Shown piece by piece: positions 47,858 through 55,949 of a DNA stretch of 64,000 nucleotides. Source of the DNA: Algibacter pectinivorans (GTDB taxonomy: Bacteria > Bacteroidota > Bacteroidia > Flavobacteriales > Flavobacteriaceae). The notes under the pieces are model-generated. The model made no database searches. It saw only the letters and a list, made by a program, of their open reading frames with translations, and was not told the origin of the DNA. The stretch is from assembly GCF_900112595.1 (NCBI RefSeq), contig NZ_FOMI01000005.1, forward strand, positions 124,001 through 188,000. The letters run 5' to 3'. The position numbers were made by a program, and so were the translations under genes. Position 1 is the stretch's first letter. Every line of letters begins with the position of its first letter.

Positions 47858-48622
47858 TTAATTTAAAATTGAATTTACAAATGTATCAATGCTATTTACC
47901 CCATTATTAGTAACATGTTTTACAAAAGCACTACCAATAATAGCCCCTTTGGCATATTGCGTGGCTTGTGTAAAAGTCTCGTTATTACTAATCCCAAAAC
48001 CAATAACCTGCGGGTTATTTAAGTTCATTTTTCCAATACGCTCAAAATATTCGGTTTGCACGGTTCCAAAACCAGATTGCGCTCCGGTAGTACTCGCACT
48101 ACTCACCATATAAATAAATCCGTTAGAAATAGAATCGATATAATGAATACGCTCATCGCTAGTTTGCGGTGTAATTAAAAATACATTTATAAGGCCGTAT
48201 TTTTCAAAAATAGCTTGATATTCTTCATGGTAAACATCAACAGGTAAATCCGGAATAATTAAACCATCAATACCAATTTCTTGGCATTTTTTGCAAAAAG
48301 CTTCAACCCCATATTGAAACATTGGGTTAAAGTATCCCATAATAATTAAAGGAATATTTACTGTTTTTCTAATGTCTTTTAGCTGTTCAAAAAGCACTTC
48401 GGTGGTCATGCCGTTTTTTAAAGCAGCTGTAGAACTTGCTTGAATAGTTGGTCCATCGGCCAATGGGTCGCTAAACGGTAGGCCAATTTCAATCATATCG
48501 ACACCGTTTTTTTCTAAATTCTCGATAATGGTCACGGTATCGTCAATATTTGGATATCCTGCTGTAAAGTAAATAGATAGTAATTTTTTGTCTTCGTTTA
48601 GCTTTTTATTTATTCTGTTCAT
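47858..48622 (-). CDS. trpA: tryptophan synthase alpha subunit
   Basis: Cleaves indole-3-glycerol phosphate to indole and glyceraldehyde-3-phosphate. The 254-residue TIM barrel has the catalytic Glu in MIEIGLPFSDPLADGPTIQ and Asp in IDGLIIPDLP. GFGISNNET binds the substrate phosphate. ATG 48622 (MNRINKKL) is the normal start; the reading that extends to a GTG at 48649 runs into a dispersed repeat. It receives indole-channelling partners from the TrpB part of the upstream fusion. Confidence 0.95.
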   Translation of the reverse strand: MNRINKKLNEDKKLLSIYFTAGYPNIDDTVTIIENLEKNGVDMIEIGLPFSDPLADGPTIQASSTAALKNGMTTEVLFEQLKDIRKTVNIPLIIMGYFNPMFQYGVEAFCKKCQEIGIDGLIIPDLPVDVYHEEYQAIFEKYGLINVFLITPQTSDERIHYIDSISNGFIYMVSSASTTGAQSGFGTVQTEYFERIGKMNLNNPQVIGFGISNNETFTQATQYAKGAIIGSAFVKHVTNNGVNSIDTFVNSILN

Positions 48623-48639
48623 TGTCGTTTTTATTTTGG

Positions 48640-48723
48640 GCGTTACCACAAGGGTCGGGCTTTCACTACTCGCTCCCTCCTAAAAAGTCGGGGAGCTCAA
48701 ACATGCCGTTCAATCCCTAACGC
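48640..48723 (-). repeat. dispersed intergenic repeat, copy C
   Basis: On the minus strand it runs from GCGTTAGGGATTG (48711-48723) to GCCCGACCC and GGTAACGC (48640-48647). It lies exactly between trpFB and trpA. Copies A, B and D have the same ends. Confidence 0.8.
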
Positions 48724-48741
48724 GGTAATAACGTCATCTAT

Positions 48742-50658
48742 TTATATTTTAAAATACTCAATATAGTTGTTTAAATCCTTATCACCACGACCAGATAAAC
48801 TAACCACAACAACATCATTTGGTTTAAATTGTCTCTGTTCAAAAATGGCTAAAGCATGCGAACTTTCAATAGCCGGAATAATACCTTCTAGTTTACAAAG
48901 TTCTAACCCAGCATTCATAGCATCTTCATCTGTAATAGCCATAAATTCTGCACGCCCTGTTTTCGCTAAATGCGCATGCATTGGGCCAACACCAGGATAG
49001 TCTAATCCTGCCGAAATAGAATACGGTTCTGTAATTTGTCCGTCTTGCGTTTGCATTAACAAGGTTTTACAACCATGAATAATACCTTCTTTCCCTAAAA
49101 CCGATGTTGCAGCACTTTCACCCGAATCTACACCTAAACCTGCAGCTTCAACGGCTATAATTCCAACTTCTGGTTCGTGTAAATAATGGTAATAGGTTCC
49201 TGCAGCATTGCTACCTCCACCAATACAAGCCACTAAATAATCTGGGTTTTCATTACCTGTTTGTTCTTTTAATTGCCATTTAATTTCTTCTGATATTACC
49301 GCTTGAAATCTAGTAACCATATCAGGATACGGGTGCGGACCAATAGCCGAACCAATAATATAATGCGTATCCACAGGATTATTTATCCAATCGCGAATAG
49401 CTTCGTTGGTAGCATCTTTTAACGTGCGGCTTCCCGATAATGCTGGTACTACTTTGGCACCTAACATTTTCATTCTAGCCACATTGGGTGCTTGTCTAGC
49501 AATATCTATTTCGCCCATGTAAACAATACACTCTAAGCCCATTAAAGCACAAACAGTAGCTGTTGCAACACCATGTTGTCCAGCGCCAGTTTCGGCAATA
49601 ATACGGTGTTTGCCTAAGCGTTTGGCCATTAAAATTTGACCAATAGTATTATTAATTTTATGAGCACCAGTATGGTTTAGGTCTTCGCGTTTTAAATATA
49701 TTTTGGTGTTATATTTTTCCGAAAGACGTTTAGCAAAATAAAGCGGACTTGGGCGTCCTACATAATCTTTTAAAAGTTTATCGAACTCTGCCTTAAAATC
49801 GGGTTCTGCCATAACTTTTAAATAGTTTTGGCGCAACTCTTCTACATTTGGGTATAGCATTTCTGGTATAAATGCACCTCCAAATTCGCCATAATAGCCT
49901 TTTTCGTTTACGTTATAATTCATAACATGTTCTTTTTTATAATCTAATACCTCGCTGAGGTTCTTTTTAAAAGCTTTTAATGCTTCAATGTTTTTTAATC
50001 CGGGTTCAATTTCAAACTTACTGTTTACATCCAAAGCATAACAGTATTTTGATGCTTTGCTGTTTGTAAATTGTTTAATATCTTCTATTTCTTCTAAGCC
50101 AATACCACCACTTAAAAAGAAGGGTTTTGTTGATGGGTAATGGTTTAATAAATTCCAATCAAAGGTATAACCGTTTCCTCCAGGGTGTTTTCCTTTTGTA
50201 TCAAACAAAAAGAAATCGCATACAGCTTCATAAGGTTTTAGTCTGTTAAAATTGAATTCGTCTTTTACCGAAAACACTTTTATTATTTCTAAAGGATGTG
50301 ATACTGAAACAAATTTAGCATGACGATTTTTTAAATCGTCACAATATTCAGGAGATTCGTTGCCGTGTAATTGAACAGCTTGTAAGTTGTGCTTGTTTAT
50401 TTTATCTATTACAAATTCCAATGAGGCATCAACAAAAACTCCTGTTTTTTTGATGGCTTCGTGTATGTCAGGAATGCTTTCAGAATCAAAGTTTCGCGCA
50501 GATTTTTCATAAAATATAAATCCAAGATAATCCGGTTGCAATGCTGCAACGTTTTTGATGTTATCTTGATATTTCATGCCACAAACTTTCAGCCTCACCC
50601 TAGCCCTCTCCAAAGGAGAGGGAATTGATTGCGTGATATGTTGTTTCTTTTTAGTCAT
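48742..50658 (-). CDS. trpFB: fused phosphoribosylanthranilate isomerase / tryptophan synthase beta (TrpF-TrpB)
   Basis: A single 638-residue frame joins two trp enzymes. Residues about 22-235 are TrpF (KVCGMK with catalytic Cys26, LHGNE, and ALDVNS with catalytic Asp210). Residues 246-638 are TrpB (catalytic Lys334 in [23 protein letters not shown]). Met246 sits where free TrpB proteins of this group start ([12 protein letters not shown]), so internal initiation is possible. The joining linker (about 231-245) includes a CCTCGCTGAGG palindrome. Residues 11-23 come from another palindromic repeat. Both active sites look complete. In most flavobacteria I would expect two separate genes. Confidence 0.93.
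50592..50626. repeat. short palindromic repeat in the trpF 5' end
   Basis: A perfect CCCTCTCC-AAA-GGAGAGGG stem (50604-50622) with a CCTCACCC flank. It is in frame and encodes the residues between Met1 and the conserved KVCGMK start of the TrpF domain. Confidence 0.75.
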
Positions 50659-50670
50659 AAGAGTAAAAGT

Positions 50671-50700
50671 TCTCCTCCTTTGGAGGAGTTAGAGGAGGCC
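50671..50700. repeat. short palindromic repeat across the trpC stop codon
   Basis: The arms CTCCTCC-TTT-GGAGGAG (50672-50688), then AGAGGAGGCC. The trpC stop codon and its last codons lie inside the element. Same family as at 1443, 1521 and 50592. Confidence 0.7.
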
Positions 50701-51471
50701 CTTTATAAATTCGGTTGCACTTGTTCCAGGATTATCTGTTTTCATAAAGTTTTCTCCAATTAAAAAACCTTGGTACCCATATGGTTGTAATTCCTTTATA
50801 GCTTCAATATTACTTATACCACTTTCCGATACTTTTACAAAATCGTTTGGTATAAGGCCGCTTAAACTTTTACTGGTGTCTAAACTAACATCGAAGGTTT
50901 TTAAGTTTCTGTTATTAACACCAAGCATGTCTAAACTTGGCATAATAGATTTATGTAACTCTTCTTCGTTATGCACTTCCAAAAGTACATCAAGATGTAA
51001 ACTTTTAGCAAACTCAGAGAATTGTTTTATTTCATCTCTAGATAAAATTGCAGCGATAAGTAGAATAACATCTGCGCCGTAAGCTTTAGCTTCAAGCATT
51101 TGATACTCGTCTATTATAAATTCCTTCCTTAGTAAAGGTAAGTTACAACTTGCTCTTGCTGTTAGTAAATCGTCTAACGAACCGCCAAAATACTTGCCAT
51201 CCGTTAAAACAGACATACCGCAAACACCTGCATCTTGATACCCTTTTGCTACGTCTTGCACATTTAAACTGTTGTTAATTACAGATTTTGATGGCGAACG
51301 ACGTTTATGTTCTGCTATAATTCCAGATGTACTGTGGCGTAGGTTGTTTGCTAAGGATACGGTTTGTCTTTCAAATAAAACAGATTGTTCTAATTGAGAG
51401 GTTGGAATTAGGCTTTTTCGAAGCTCAACTTCTTTGCGTTTATCAAGTGTTATTTTATCTAGTATATTCAT
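50689..51471 (-). CDS. trpC: indole-3-glycerol phosphate synthase
   Basis: Closes the indole ring of the tryptophan precursor. The 260-residue TIM barrel has IAEHKRRSPSK (catalytic Lys), the catalytic Lys and Glu in LLRKEFIIDEYQ and the VLLEVHNEEEL and GVNNRNLKTF blocks. The C-terminal VSESGIS carries a phosphate-binding Ser. The stand-alone TrpC is not fused to TrpF as in enteric bacteria; here TrpF is fused to TrpB. Fourth structural gene of the trp operon. Confidence 0.96.
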   Translation of the reverse strand: MNILDKITLDKRKEVELRKSLIPTSQLEQSVLFERQTVSLANNLRHSTSGIIAEHKRRSPSKSVINNSLNVQDVAKGYQDAGVCGMSVLTDGKYFGGSLDDLLTARASCNLPLLRKEFIIDEYQMLEAKAYGADVILLIAAILSRDEIKQFSEFAKSLHLDVLLEVHNEEELHKSIMPSLDMLGVNNRNLKTFDVSLDTSKSLSGLIPNDFVKVSESGISNIEAIKELQPYGYQGFLIGENFMKTDNPGTSATEFIKGLL

Positions 51472-51474
51472 GTT

Positions 51475-51554
51475 CTAGTCTTCAGTATTCAGTATTCAGT
51501 CCTCAGTCCTCAGTGAGCAAACTGCTAACTGGTTACTGCCAACTGCGAACTTTT
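51475..51554. repeat. degenerate tandem repeats between trpC and trpD
   Basis: A heptamer array (AGTATTC/AGTCCTC, about five units, 51482-51514) is followed by a degenerate ACTGC/CAACTGC series. There is no coding content; it is one of three unrelated tandem arrays in the trp junctions. Confidence 0.75.
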
Positions 51555-52547
51555 TTATTTACTTAACTCAATCAATTTATCTAAACTGGTTTTAGCTTTA
51601 CCAGAAAACAGGGAGTCTTTTGCAATTTCAAAACCTGCTTGATGCGAAATTTGTTTTGATGTTGCAATAGCTAATCCTGCATTGGCGCAAACGACGTTGT
51701 TTTGTGCTTCGGTTCCTTTACCGCTAATGATATCAACAAATATGTTTGCGGCATCTGTTATGGTATCGCCACCAAAAATGGCTTCTTGTTTTATTTTTGC
51801 AACCCCTAAATCTTCTGGAGAGAAAAGTTTTTCGGTGTGGTTTGAAATAATTTTTGCTTTTCCTGTTAACGAAATTTCATCGTAACCATCTAATGCATAA
51901 ACAATATTATAGTTGCTACCTGTGTTTTGATATAAAAAACTATATAGCCTTAAAACCTCTAAGTTAAAAACACCTAATACGTGGTTTTTAGGAAACGATG
52001 GATTAACCAAAGGACCTAAAATATTGAAAAACGTTTTTACACCTAATTCTCTTCGTATTGGTGCTACGTTTTTCATTGCTGGATGAAACAGTGGTGCATG
52101 TAATATGCAAATTCCTGCTTGGTCTAAACATCGCTTTAGGAAATCTTCGTTATTAGAAAATTTTACACCTAAATGTTCCATTACATTGGATGATCCGGAT
52201 GTTGATGACACACCATAATTGCCGTGTTTAGATACATGAACTCCTGCGCCTGCCGTAATAAAAGATGATAGGGTAGAGATGTTAAAGGTGTTTTTGCCAT
52301 CGCCACCGGTTCCTACTATATCTATGGCATTAAAATCGGACAGATTTATTGGTAAACATAGCTCTAGTAGGGCGTCTCTAAAACCTTTTAACTCTTGTAT
52401 AGTAATACTTCGCATCATGAAAACCGATAGAAAACACGTTATTTGGCTAGGGTTATACATATCGTTGGATATGTTAACGATAACTTGTTTAGCTTCTTCG
52501 CTTGAGATAGTTTCGTAATTTATTAATCTTTTGAGTATATCTTTCAT
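51555..52547 (-). CDS. trpD: anthranilate phosphoribosyltransferase
   Basis: Couples anthranilate to PRPP. The 330-residue glycosyltransferase family 3 protein has the PRPP-binding GTGGDGKNTFNIST, the KHGNYGVSSTSGSS segment, and the NPSFPKNHVLGVF block. It is a stand-alone TrpD, not fused to TrpG. Third structural gene of the operon, after trpG across a 130-bp repeat-filled gap. Confidence 0.96.
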   Translation of the reverse strand: MKDILKRLINYETISSEEAKQVIVNISNDMYNPSQITCFLSVFMMRSITIQELKGFRDALLELCLPINLSDFNAIDIVGTGGDGKNTFNISTLSSFITAGAGVHVSKHGNYGVSSTSGSSNVMEHLGVKFSNNEDFLKRCLDQAGICILHAPLFHPAMKNVAPIRRELGVKTFFNILGPLVNPSFPKNHVLGVFNLEVLRLYSFLYQNTGSNYNIVYALDGYDEISLTGKAKIISNHTEKLFSPEDLGVAKIKQEAIFGGDTITDAANIFVDIISGKGTEAQNNVVCANAGLAIATSKQISHQAGFEIAKDSLFSGKAKTSLDKLIELSK

Positions 52548-52555
52548 TTTCTTTC

Positions 52556-52575
52556 ATTCCTGCGAAGGCAGGAAT
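52556..52575. repeat. short palindrome (ATTCCTGC/GCAGGAAT family)
   Basis: The arms ATTCCTGC and GCAGGAAT (with one central mismatch) between trpG and trpD. An almost identical copy lies at 53254-53273 between trpE and trpG. Confidence 0.7.
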
Positions 52576-52610
52576 CTTTTATTTAATTATACTTTTTTCA
52601 ATCGAGTAAG

Positions 52611-52675
52611 CACTGTTTACTGCCACTGTTTACTGCCACTGTTTACTGCCACTGTTTACTGCCACTGCATACTGC
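52611..52675. repeat. 13-bp tandem array, five units
   Basis: Units read CACTGTTTACTGC four times, then a variant (CACTGCATACTGC). The array ends two bases before the trpG stop codon, so it lies in the trpG-trpD junction and is non-coding. Copy number is probably variable between strains. Confidence 0.9.
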
Positions 52676-52677
52676 GA

Positions 52678-53244
52678 CTAATTTTCAACCCAGTTTTTTA
52701 AAATTTTCTTTCCATCGGGTGTTAATACAGATTCTGGGTGGTATTGCACGCCTCTTACATCATAGACTTTATGTCTTAAAGACATGACTTGTCCGTTTGC
52801 ATCGAATGAGGTGGCTTCTAAACTTTCTGGTAATTCTGGACTTACCACCCATGAATGGTAACGACCTACTTCGATATTTTTATCTAAGCCTTTAAAAATA
52901 TATTCGTCGTCTACACTAATGGTAACATTGGTGGCTACACCATGATACACATCGTCTAGATTTATAAGTGAACCTCCAAAAACTTCGCCAATGGCTTGCT
53001 GACCTAAACACACACCTAATATACTTTTTGTTGCGGCGTATTTTTCGATAATTGGTTTTAGTAAACCGGCTTCGTCTGGAATTCCAGGACCTGGCGACAA
53101 TACAATTTTATTGAAAGCCTCCACATCTTCTAAAGCTAATTTGTCGTTTCTTACTACGGTTACATTACAGTTTAAATCTTCTAGGTAATGTACCAGATTG
53201 TATGTGAAACTGTCGTAATTGTCTATAACTAATACTTTTTTCAT
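52678..53244 (-). CDS. trpG: anthranilate synthase component II (glutamine amidotransferase)
   Basis: Supplies ammonia to TrpE from glutamine. The 188-residue class I amidotransferase has the catalytic Cys in GVCLGQQAIG, and His-Glu in YHPESVLTPDG. The family start is MKKVLVIDNYDSFTYNLV. It is not fused to TrpD. Close relatives include PabA of folate synthesis; the operon context makes TrpG the better call. Confidence 0.95.
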   Translation of the reverse strand: MKKVLVIDNYDSFTYNLVHYLEDLNCNVTVVRNDKLALEDVEAFNKIVLSPGPGIPDEAGLLKPIIEKYAATKSILGVCLGQQAIGEVFGGSLINLDDVYHGVATNVTISVDDEYIFKGLDKNIEVGRYHSWVVSPELPESLEATSFDANGQVMSLRHKVYDVRGVQYHPESVLTPDGKKILKNWVEN

Positions 53245-53523: not shown

Positions 53524-53570
53524 TCTTTCTAACTTCTAACTTCTAACTTCTAACTTCTAACTTCTAACTT
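53524..53570. repeat. heptamer tandem array (TAACTTC)n
   Basis: About six units of TAACTTC ending against copy D of the dispersed repeat. It lies in the 448-bp gap between trpE and trpG, which contains no gene. Confidence 0.9.
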
Positions 53571-53685
53571 GCGTTAGGGATTGCAGCGGCATCCTTTTTT
53601 TGCTGCCATAAATGGCAAAAAAAGACCTGCCTGCCTGCCTGCCTGCCGGCAGGTATAGCGTAAAGCCCGACCCTTGTGGTAACGC
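53571..53685 (+). repeat. dispersed intergenic repeat, copy D
   Basis: GCGTTAGGGATTG at 53571-53583 and GGTAACGC at 53678-53685, with GCCCGACCC before the right end. Inside it is a nested CTGCC tetranucleotide-like run ending in a GCCGGCAGG palindrome, which is also present in copy A at a different position. It ends 7 bp before the trpE stop codon. Confidence 0.82.
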
Positions 53686-53692
53686 CCATACT

Positions 53693-55099
53693 TTAAATGT
53701 TTTCGGCTAATTTAATAGCTTTTTTTAGTGCTCCTAGTTTATTATATACTTCTTGCAGCTCGTTTTCTTGATTGGATTTTGATACCAATCCTGCGCCGGC
53801 TTGCCAGTTTAATTTATAGTCTTTACTTAAAAAAGTACGAATCATTATGGCGTGGTTAAAATTGCCATCGAAATCCATAAAACCAATGGCGCCACCGTAG
53901 TAGCCTCGGCTGGTTTTTTCGTAATCTTCTATGAGTTGCATGGCGCGGTGTTTTGGCGCGCCGCTTAGGGTTCCTGCTGGAAAGGTATCGGCCACGACTT
54001 GCATGGTTGATGTTTCCTTGTGTTTTTGTCCTGTTACTTTACTTACCAAATGGATAACGTGAGAGAAAAACTGAACTTCGCGATAGGTAACTACTTTTAC
54101 TCCGCTACCGTGGCGACTTAAATCGTTTCGTGCTAAATCGACTAGCATAACGTGTTCTGCGTTTTCTTTGTCGTCGTTTTTTAGTTTTTCGGCTAAAATT
54201 TCGTCTTTGTGCTCATCGCCAGTACGTTTAAAGGTTCCTGCAATGGGGTGTATTTCTGCTAAACCATCGTCGACAATAAGTTGTGCTTCTGGCGAGCTGC
54301 CGAAAATTTTAAAATCGCCATAATCGAAATAGAATAGGTAAGGCGATGGGTTTATGCTTCTTAGAGCGCGGTATACATTAAAATCGTCGCCCGTAAATTC
54401 TTGAGAAAAACGTCTGGATAATACCAATTGAAACACATCTCCGCGTTGGCAATGTTTTCTTGCTATTTCAACTTGGTTTCTAAATTCGTTGTCGGTAAGG
54501 TTAGACTTAATATCGTCTTTAGAACTAAAATTATATGACGCGAAATTTTGAACGTTTATAAGTTTATCTATGGCATCGATATTGTTTTCGGTGTCTTCAT
54601 AACAATGCGCAAATATGTAAGCTTCGTTTTTAAAGTGGTTTATGGCTATGATGTTTTTGTAAACGGCATAGTACATGTCTGGAATAATCACCGAGTCGTC
54701 TTTTTTACTAATTTGAACATCTTCGAAATACCGAACAGCATCGTAAGCGGTGTAACCAAAAATACCGTTGTTTATAAACTTGAAATCCTCGTCGGTTTTG
54801 GTATCGAATTTTTTAGTGAATTTGTGTATTTCGTCGGCCACATTAACATCTTTAGTAATGTTTAAAGTTGTGGTGCTGCCGTCTGGAAATGTTTCTGAAA
54901 TCACTTCGTTTTCTACCTTAATTGTAGCAATAGGATTAAAACAAATGTATGAGAAGTTTTTATGGCTTCTGTGATAATCGCCACTTTCTAATAAAATACT
55001 ATTTGGGTATTTATCGCGTATTTTATAATAAACCGTTACAGGTGTAATGGTATCTGTTAAAATGCGTTTGTGGTGTGTATAAAGACTAAATTTTTTCAT
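53693..55099 (-). CDS. trpE: anthranilate synthase component I
   Basis: Converts chorismate and ammonia to anthranilate, the first committed step of tryptophan synthesis. The 468-residue protein has the N-terminal feedback-binding LLESGDYHR (LLES motif, about residue 36). The chorismate-binding core includes GDVFQLVLSRRF, GSSPEAQL, HPIAGTFKRTG, LVDLARNDL, and GTLSGAPKHRAMQLI. First structural gene of the operon. It is preceded by an attenuator-like terminator and a Trp-rich leader peptide, so expression is likely controlled by Trp-tRNA charging. Confidence 0.97.
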   Translation of the reverse strand: MKKFSLYTHHKRILTDTITPVTVYYKIRDKYPNSILLESGDYHRSHKNFSYICFNPIATIKVENEVISETFPDGSTTTLNITKDVNVADEIHKFTKKFDTKTDEDFKFINNGIFGYTAYDAVRYFEDVQISKKDDSVIIPDMYYAVYKNIIAINHFKNEAYIFAHCYEDTENNIDAIDKLINVQNFASYNFSSKDDIKSNLTDNEFRNQVEIARKHCQRGDVFQLVLSRRFSQEFTGDDFNVYRALRSINPSPYLFYFDYGDFKIFGSSPEAQLIVDDGLAEIHPIAGTFKRTGDEHKDEILAEKLKNDDKENAEHVMLVDLARNDLSRHGSGVKVVTYREVQFFSHVIHLVSKVTGQKHKETSTMQVVADTFPAGTLSGAPKHRAMQLIEDYEKTSRGYYGGAIGFMDFDGNFNHAIMIRTFLSKDYKLNWQAGAGLVSKSNQENELQEVYNKLGALKKAIKLAENI

Positions 55100-55154
55100 T
55101 TTATGTTTTTATAAATTTCCGCTTAGGCGAAAACAAAAATATTTATAAATAAAA

Positions 55155-55182
55155 AAAGGCTTGTCGTGAATGACAAGCCTTT
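55155..55182 (-). terminator. attenuator hairpin of the trp operon
   Basis: The arms AAAGGCTTGTC (55155-55165) and GACAAGCCTTT (55172-55182) with a 6-nt loop are followed on the minus strand by a run of seven T residues. It lies between the leader peptide and trpE, which is the position of a classic attenuator. The seven-T run begins inside the downstream arm. Confidence 0.88.
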
Positions 55183-55204
55183 TGAATATTTTTAAGTTTT
55201 AAAT

Positions 55205-55258
55205 ATACTAGGGTTTTACTTCACGAAGATTAGTTTCGAAAGCTCCACCACCAAGTAT
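55205..55258 (-). promoter_or_regulatory. candidate competing leader RNA pairing (regions 1 and 2)
   Basis: The minus-strand segment at 55251-55258, which contains the first Trp codon, can pair with 55205-55212 in seven of eight positions (AUACUUGG with CCUAGUAU). A ribosome stalled on the Trp codons would block this pairing, as expected for a leader-peptide attenuator. The antiterminator partner of the terminator stem is not clear by eye. Confidence 0.45.
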
Positions 55259-55277
55259 TATTTAAAATTGAATTCAT
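55230..55277 (-). CDS. trpL: trp operon leader peptide with WWW run
   Basis: A 15-codon frame from ATG 55277 to the TAA ending at 55230 encodes MNSILNNTWWWSFRN. Three consecutive TGG codons (55245-55253) in so short a frame are very unlikely by chance. The terminator hairpin follows about 47 bp later, and trpE starts 55 bp beyond. This is the arrangement of a ribosome-mediated attenuator: charged tRNA-Trp lets the ribosome pass and the terminator form, and starvation stalls it. I did not find a strong Shine-Dalgarno sequence, in keeping with Bacteroidota translation. Confidence 0.85.
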   Translation of the reverse strand: MNSILNNTWWWSFRN

Positions 55278-55296
55278 TTTTTTGTTTTAATTGGTC

Positions 55297-55328
55297 CAAA
55301 TATAAAGATGAAAATAGTTTTACACAAA
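55297..55328 (-). promoter_or_regulatory. trp operon promoter, Bacteroidota consensus
   Basis: Minus-strand TTTG (55325-55328), 20-bp spacer, TATATTTG (55297-55304). Transcription should start near 55291, leaving about 14 nt before the leader ATG. Confidence 0.78.
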
Positions 55329-55403: not shown

Positions 55404-55949
55404 ATGAAACTAAAAGCATTATTTGTTGCTATTCTTTTAATGGCAAGTTGTAAAGAAAATAGTAAGATAACCGAAGTGGTTAAGGAAACTACCAAAGAAG
55501 TTGCCGTAAATACCAGTGAAACTAATGATGTTAAACTTGAGATTTATGATTTTGCAGGTTTTGAGCAATTTTTAAATAAAAAAGATGATAAAACCTACGT
55601 TGTTAATTTCTGGGCTACCTGGTGTGCACCTTGTGTAAAAGAGTTACCTTATTTTGAAAAATTAAATAGCGAATACCAAAGTAAGAATGTTGAGGTGATT
55701 TTGGTGAGTTTAGATTTTCCGCATATGTATGATAAAAAACTGAAGCCTTTTATTAAGGAAAACGCTTTAAAATCGAAAGTTATTGTATTGGAAGATCCAG
55801 ACATGAATAGTTGGATTCCTAAAGTAGATAAAGGTTGGTCGGGTTCCATTCCTGCCACAGTTATTTACAAAAATGACACGAGTAGGTTTTATGAGCAATC
55901 TTTTAATTACGAAGAGTTACAACAAGAAGTTAATCAATTTTTAAAATAA
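55404..55949 (+). CDS. TlpA-like thioredoxin-fold lipoprotein
   Basis: The 181-residue protein has a lipoprotein signal (MASC, Cys at about residue 16) and the thioredoxin motif WCAPC in FWATWCAPCVKELPYFEKL. It is a membrane-anchored periplasmic disulfide reductase of the TlpA/ResA type, acting perhaps in cytochrome maturation or oxidative repair. ATG 55404 is preferred over the upstream reading from 55308, because the longer one would run across the trp promoter. A second thioredoxin-fold gene follows 8 bp later. Confidence 0.85.
   Translation: MKLKALFVAILLMASCKENSKITEVVKETTKEVAVNTSETNDVKLEIYDFAGFEQFLNKKDDKTYVVNFWATWCAPCVKELPYFEKLNSEYQSKNVEVILVSLDFPHMYDKKLKPFIKENALKSKVIVLEDPDMNSWIPKVDKGWSGSIPATVIYKNDTSRFYEQSFNYEELQQEVNQFLK

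Follow-up and report, generated by a model that had tools for sequence, protein, structure and literature searches.

The window analysed here, a 64-kb stretch of Algibacter pectinivorans DNA, carries on its minus strand a trp operon that NCBIfam matches order as trpEGDC(FB)A, preceded by a leader region. Its features, in the direction of transcription, are as follows.

55297-55328, minus strand: promoter of Bacteroidota type, TTTG-N20-TATATTTG, with TTTG at 55328-55325 and TATATTTG at 55304-55297 (from the sequence)
55230-55277, minus strand: leader peptide ORF MNSILNNTWWWSFRN, 15 codons and TAA, with ATG at 55277 and TAA at 55232-55230 (from the sequence and family comparison)
55245-55253, minus strand: three consecutive Trp codons, TGGTGGTGG, the proposed stall site (from the sequence and family comparison)
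55205-55258, minus strand: outer protector stem, ATACTTGG (55258-55251) with CCTAGTAT (55212-55205) (from the RF01692 consensus and folding)
55218-55243, minus strand: inner protector hairpin, region 1 GCTTTCGAA (55243-55235) with region 2 TTCGTGAAGT (55227-55218) (from the minimum free energy fold)
55220-55226, minus strand: candidate antiterminator region 2, TCGTGAA, complementary to 55170-55164 (from comparison, co-variation and folding)
55164-55170, minus strand: proposed target of region 2, TTCACGA, five terminator-loop bases and the two that open the 3' arm (from comparison and co-variation)
55154-55183, minus strand: intrinsic terminator, AAAAGGCTTGTC, loop ATTCAC and GACAAGCCTTTT, 12 pairs, then a T-rich tail (from a terminator scan)
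53693-55099, minus strand: trpE, anthranilate synthase component I, the first structural gene, with ATG at 55099 (TIGR00564)
47858-53244, minus strand: trpG, trpD, trpC, fused trpF-trpB and trpA, the remainder of the operon (NCBIfam)

The best NCBIfam match of trpE was TIGR00564 (trpE_most; 428.1 bits, E 4.4e-128), below the cut-off of 517.7, and matches of the trp genes 3' of it to TIGR00566, TIGR01245, NF001377 and TIGR00262 exceeded their cut-offs. TrpF and TrpB are encoded by a single 638-aa ORF (48742-50658, minus strand), which scored 774.4 bits against the bifunctional PRAI/TrpB model NF010376 (cut-off, 819) and also matched the trpB model TIGR00263 above its cut-off. Among the best 80 of 570 loci, the nearest named relative of the window's TrpE was that of Algibacter amylolyticus (98% identical), which places the lineage in the Flavobacteriaceae. 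The 448-base gap between trpE and trpG holds a match to the Flavo-1 RNA (RF01705) at 53562-53676 on the plus strand, at 32.8 bits below the cut-off of 42. As the genome contains 53 such matches at E <= 0.001, 24 of them above the cut-off, this looks like a dispersed repeat.

The initial annotation had described a consensus promoter, a 15-codon Trp leader, a terminator and trpE in that order, and all of these elements were found where it had put them. The promoter, which resembles the Bacteroidota consensus, was not listed by a generic sigma-70 scan. The leader RNA folded at -36.4 kcal/mol, compared with -17.4 +/- 3.2 for dinucleotide shuffles (z -6.0), and two terminator-like sites were detected in 801 bases against 0.2 expected, both from one hairpin seen on the two strands. 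The stem at 55154-55183 scores as a terminator on the plus strand too; on that strand, no ORF of 100 aa or more terminates directly upstream of it. A divergent TlpA-like gene begins at 55404 (plus strand). As in an attenuator, an intrinsic terminator separates a leader peptide ORF that has regulatory codons from the first gene of the operon.

Analysis with cmscan placed the RNA family RF01692, Bacteroid-trp, at 55172-55297 with 60.9 bits (gathering score, 49; E 8.6e-6). The trp genes lie downstream of this match, the Trp-codon ORF lies inside the motif, and it was the only match in the Algibacter genome. The window shares with the family its sequence, its place before trpE, its Trp leader ORF and its protector stem, and nothing in the window itself differs. 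Table 1 of Weinberg et al. 2010 (PMC2864571) lists Bacteroid-trp in Bacteroidetes, with "y" for RNA, "y" for cis-regulatory and "n" for switch, and a 2019 paper on F. psychrophilum (PMC6414381) describes the element as conserved upstream of the trp operon of that species and compares it with the E. coli leader. The initial annotation had thought that the attenuator may be new to this lineage. It is real, yet not new, since its family was catalogued in 2010 and a member in front of the F. psychrophilum trp operon was pointed out in 2019. In the literature searched, judged mostly from listings, we found no experimental test of the family.

In surveys conducted with strict filters, RF01692 was detected at E <= 0.001 in 109 of 149 Flavobacteriaceae genomes, 95 of them above the cut-off. 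An order sample of 116 genomes yielded 26 with a match and a phylum sample of 296 yielded 30, of which 23 and 28, respectively, are Flavobacteriaceae. Only one (L125) of 12 divergent leaders that we tested, four of them from Flavobacteriaceae, passes the RF01692 cut-off, so the predicted trp switch looks wider than the model. In one genome (G380; loci L036 and L210), a 78.1-bit match (G380:C3:788912-789049) lies about 1250 nt upstream of trpE, so the operon may be longer in that genome, with the attenuator at its head.

We then looked for Trp leaders independently of the RF01692 model. A homology search detected TrpE in 136 of the 149 family genomes, and after three partial hits (G066, G079 and G147) were dropped, 133 upstream regions were retained. 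A leader ORF was defined by an ATG start, a length of 6-45 codons, at least two adjacent Trp codons and a location within 450 nt of trpE. The initial annotation had proposed to search for such short ORFs before trpE in other Flavobacteriaceae, and 127 of the 133 regions have one. A similar ORF search gave 127 of 132 for the real sequences and 0.65 of 132 for shuffles. Among the exceptions, two leaders start with TTG (L069 and L089) and one with GTG (L124), one lies further upstream of trpE (L063), and one is cut by a contig end at TGGTGGTGG, its terminator being visible (L157). L154 was the sole case among the 133 with no leader before trpE. In L063, which comes from an Algibacter-genus genome (G044:C7:147961-148721), a short ORF that presumably resembles a GIY-YIG endonuclease sits between the attenuator terminator and trpE, which is why the leader is found some 400 nt upstream. 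The counts given for the family are for the 149-genome sample and leave out same-family loci beyond it (most of L032-L054, L056 and L057).

Of 130 family leaders, 126 have the promoter motif TAnnTTTG no more than 90 nt before their start, compared with 14.4 in shuffles, and in 121 of those 126 the Trp codons lie in the frame set by the first ATG past the motif. All 80 named relatives (the best 80 of 570) have TGGTGGTGG with an in-frame ATG, GTG or TTG 4 to 12 codons upstream, intervening stops being ignored, and 78 of these 80 have both TCGTGA and GTC-TCACGAC. Outside the family, 71 TrpE places were eligible once same-family and 0.6-Mb genomes had been left out. Of the 60 examined, 48 have a Trp-Trp leader by ORF scan, and 49 leaders were collected altogether. 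One scan hit, 488 nt upstream (L200), was dropped as it lies in another gene. Two loci (L155 and L165) carry two tandem Trp-Trp leaders with terminator-like hairpins before trpE.

An attenuator of this kind calls for an RNA segment that competes with the terminator, and the initial annotation had assigned this role to the pairing of 55258-55251 with 55212-55205. The pairing is there, with 7 of 8 bases matched as claimed, but it is the outer protector stem of the RF01692 consensus and does not touch the terminator, and it was thus ruled out as the antiterminator. In the window, the proposed terminator competitor is 55226-55220 (TCGTGAA) with 55170-55164 (TTCACGA). The RF01692 model stops in the 5' arm of the terminator and its structure line pairs nothing with the loop or the 3' arm, so the proposed antiterminator is absent from it. 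No description of a loop/3'-arm antiterminator was found in the literature searched, judged mostly from listings; an earlier one may exist in supplements or in Lopatovskaya et al. 2010.

We aligned 129 family leaders with MAFFT and determined the percentage of cells paired for each stem. The terminator was paired in 95.2% of cells, with many double changes. The ATACT/AGTAT outer protector was paired in 76.8%; in the inner protector, CGAA/TTCG reached 71.6%, with double changes, and CTTT/GAAG only 55.2%. The antiterminator core CGTGA/TCACG was paired in about 90 to 98% of cells, and the eight antiterminator columns together in 83.0%, the first of them being unpaired in the window. Region 2 and the terminator may have a GTAT hairpin between them, but with only 65.2% of its cells paired we do not claim it. 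On its own, the near-invariant core proves little, and it is the divergent leaders that carry the argument. In L125, the antiterminator pair is TTGTCGCAA with TTGCGACAA, other letters that keep the pairing, and in five more leaders (L139, L142, L147, L150 and L156) region 2 and its target have both changed and the pair is retained. CRCGAY spans the loop and the 3' arm in 121 of the 129 family terminators.

Co-variation was assessed by a swap test on 43 representatives (<0.70 alike) of 178 leaders, in which the segment from +12 to +75 was paired with its own or another leader's terminator hairpin, taken as 8 nt of each arm plus the loop. Pairing was stronger with the own terminator (-13.8 kcal/mol) than with swapped ones (-10.4 kcal/mol; z -8.0, 0 of 20000 permutations). 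Segments on either side of the leader, taken as controls, gave z 0.09 (upstream) and -0.2 (downstream), and reversed terminators gave z -1.6, indicating that a small part of the signal is composition. In individual leaders the signal was modest: only 14 of the 43 representatives reached p <= 0.05 against shuffles of their own sequence, and the own pairing ranked first in only 4 of the 43.

The swap test of the whole hairpin leaves the partner segment unspecified, and a target-by-target test specifies it. Among 17 divergent family representatives, the loop plus 5 nt of the 3' arm gave z -4.4 (0 of 10000 permutations) and the last 5 nt of the 5' arm plus the loop z -2.8; the 5' arm alone showed no co-variation (z +2.2), and the reversed loop plus 3' arm gave z -0.7. 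Among 26 representatives from outside the family, the loop co-varied together with either arm (z -4.4 and -5.2), with a weak signal for the 5' arm alone (z -2.4) and -1.7 for the reversed control.

We also examined where a ribosome would sit relative to region 2. Across 128 leaders of the family, the median start of region 2 is +27 from the first Trp codon (10-90% range, 26 to 28), and the stop codon lies anywhere from +6 to +39. The footprint was taken to end 13 nt downstream of the A-site codon's first base; PMC4833913 gives it as 12 nt past the stop codon. In 127 of the 128 leaders, a ribosome on the last Trp codon leaves region 2 beyond its footprint, and in 120 a ribosome at the stop covers region 2 wholly; in 7 of the 128 it is either free at the last Trp codon or covered at the stop, not both. 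Outside the family, it is free at the last Trp codon in 47 of 48 leaders and covered at the stop in 29 of 48. A best-helix search returned no region 2 in L130 and L201, and in outside group f2 (many of L161-L182, with a stop at +51) its automatic assignment was unconvincing.

The leaders were next folded with a ribosome positioned on them. In the window, an A site on the first Trp codon gives the 7-pair antiterminator for as long as no more than 7 nt of the 3' arm are out, and the terminator prevails at 8 nt. With the ribosome at the stop or absent, the terminator forms and the antiterminator does not. For the family, a fold was called an antiterminator if it had 5 or more pairs joining upstream RNA to the terminator. 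With 6 nt of the 3' arm out, it was obtained in 113, 123 and 124 of 129 leaders for the A site at 0, +3 and +6, and at +27 the terminator was obtained in 128 and the antiterminator in 1. With the A site 12 nt before the Trp codons, the terminator was favoured in 96 of 129, as the protector predicts. Shuffling the free upstream segment reduced the antiterminator counts at 6 nt to 25.6 and 27.0 of 129 (A site at 0 and +6). At 4 nt, shuffled segments still gave 75.0 and 69.8 of 129, so only the 6-nt point discriminates. The 43 representatives gave 36 and 38 antiterminator folds at 6 nt, compared with 15.4 after shuffling, and leaders from outside the family gave 45 and 47 of 49, compared with about 24.5, a high control value. 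As the initial annotation had suggested, the leader was thus folded according to the state of its Trp codons, and it yielded the antiterminator with the ribosome on them and the terminator with the ribosome near the stop.

At equilibrium, with 8 nt of the 3' arm out, the terminator wins in 116 of 128 leaders when the A site holds the first Trp codon, and the finished terminator is favoured in 92 of 128 with the A site at +6. Since the complete terminator is preferred despite a stalled ribosome, antitermination would have to be kinetic. The first terminator finder detected none in L141, and the second misplaced that of L153, which was left out of the co-variation, alignment, geometry, folding and E. 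coli-comparison sets. The folding sets are also without L089 (no ATG anchor), L154 (no leader) and L157 (contig end).

The E. coli trp antiterminator uses the 5' arm of the terminator. The E. coli trpL leader (RF00513, Trp_leader) shares with the window the logic of Trp codons, protector, antiterminator and terminator, with a ribosome at the stop that covers region 2. The identical folding procedure applied to trpL of E. coli K-12 yields an equivalent switch, and there too the complete terminator wins at equilibrium in this calculation. No match to RF00513 was found in the window up to E 5. The window has three adjacent Trp codons instead of two and a Bacteroidota-type promoter, and the two leaders also differ in the partner of region 2. 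In E. coli K-12, region 2 pairs at -10.9 kcal/mol with the 5' arm and at -4.9 kcal/mol with the loop and 3' arm, whereas in the window the order is opposite, -2.7 and -8.8 kcal/mol, and the E. coli type of pairing with the 5' arm is not what was found. The loop plus 8 nt of the 3' arm, a target somewhat longer than that of the 5' arm, is the stronger partner for 125 of 129 leaders in the family and for 18 of 49 outside it. These comparisons suggest that the window's attenuator works like that of E. coli, with an antiterminator that would reach the terminator from the opposite side.

Taken with comparison and folding, which point to an antiterminator that depends on ribosome position and excludes the terminator, these data indicate that the trp operon is very probably controlled by ribosome-mediated transcription attenuation through a Trp leader, as a member of the Bacteroid-trp family. 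This reading, put forward in the initial annotation, is strongly supported by the 127 leaders in 133 regions, the co-variation, the spacing and the folds. From the elements, their conservation, the co-variation and the predicted structures, we infer the following course of stalling, kinetic preference, termination and response to tryptophan. When charged tRNA-Trp is scarce, the ribosome would stall on the three Trp codons and open the protector stem, leaving region 2 (TCGTGAA) free just past its footprint. While the terminator is being transcribed, region 2 would pair with TTCACGA, in the loop and at the beginning of the 3' arm. This pairing would confine the 5' arm to an internal loop and delay the hairpin until the polymerase has passed, and trpE-A would be transcribed. 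When Trp is plentiful, the ribosome would reach the stop codon at 55232-55230 and cover region 2, allowing the terminator to form.

The conserved multi-part stem and conserved sequence of RF01692 might also be those of a leader that binds a protein or a ligand, TRAP-like or a riboswitch, in which the short ORF is incidental. This is highly improbable, as an ATG ORF with two or more Trp codons in a row (127 of 133), a first ATG after the promoter that is in frame (121 of 126) and a fixed spacing from the Trp codons to region 2 are what a stalled ribosome requires; the motif is also scored "n" for switch in the table of Weinberg et al. (PMC2864571). Still less probable is a leader peptide with a plain terminator that lowers trp expression constitutively, regardless of tryptophan, which would leave unexplained both the in-frame Trp codons of 127 of 133 upstream regions and the co-varying alternative pairing.

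A more serious question is whether attenuation by the ribosome relies on a conventional 5'-arm antiterminator, the complementarity of 55226-55220 to the loop and 3' arm being a by-product of the resemblance of region 2 to the end of the 5' arm (GTC). In many leaders the GTC of region 2 and that of the 5' arm do share the partner GAC, and outside the family the loop plus 3' arm is the stronger target in only 18 of 49 leaders and the 5' arm alone co-varies weakly (z -2.4, 26 representatives). We nevertheless consider this unlikely. Within the family, 125 of 129 leaders pair better with the loop plus 8 nt of the 3' arm, as does the window (-8.8 versus -2.7 kcal/mol), with targets of unequal length, and it is the loop plus 5 nt of the 3' arm, not the 5' arm, that co-varies among the 17 family representatives (z -4.4 against +2.2). 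In addition, 121 of 129 terminators have CRCGAY lying across the loop and 3' arm, and this motif changes jointly with region 2, for example, in L125, L139, L142, L147, L150 and L156.

We are less sure of the loop/3'-arm geometry than of attenuation by the Trp leader. On balance, we favour a reversed antiterminator in the Flavobacteriaceae, directed at the loop and the start of the 3' arm, with a kinetic decision taken after the loop has emerged; elsewhere in Bacteroidota, region 2 would pair with the loop and either arm, the target having slid along the terminator while its distance from the stalled ribosome was kept. This offers a mechanism for a catalogued RNA family that guards tryptophan synthesis across much of the Flavobacteriaceae. 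If capture of the loop and 3' arm is true, attenuators can shift the target of their antiterminator along the terminator, the distance from the stalled ribosome remaining fixed.
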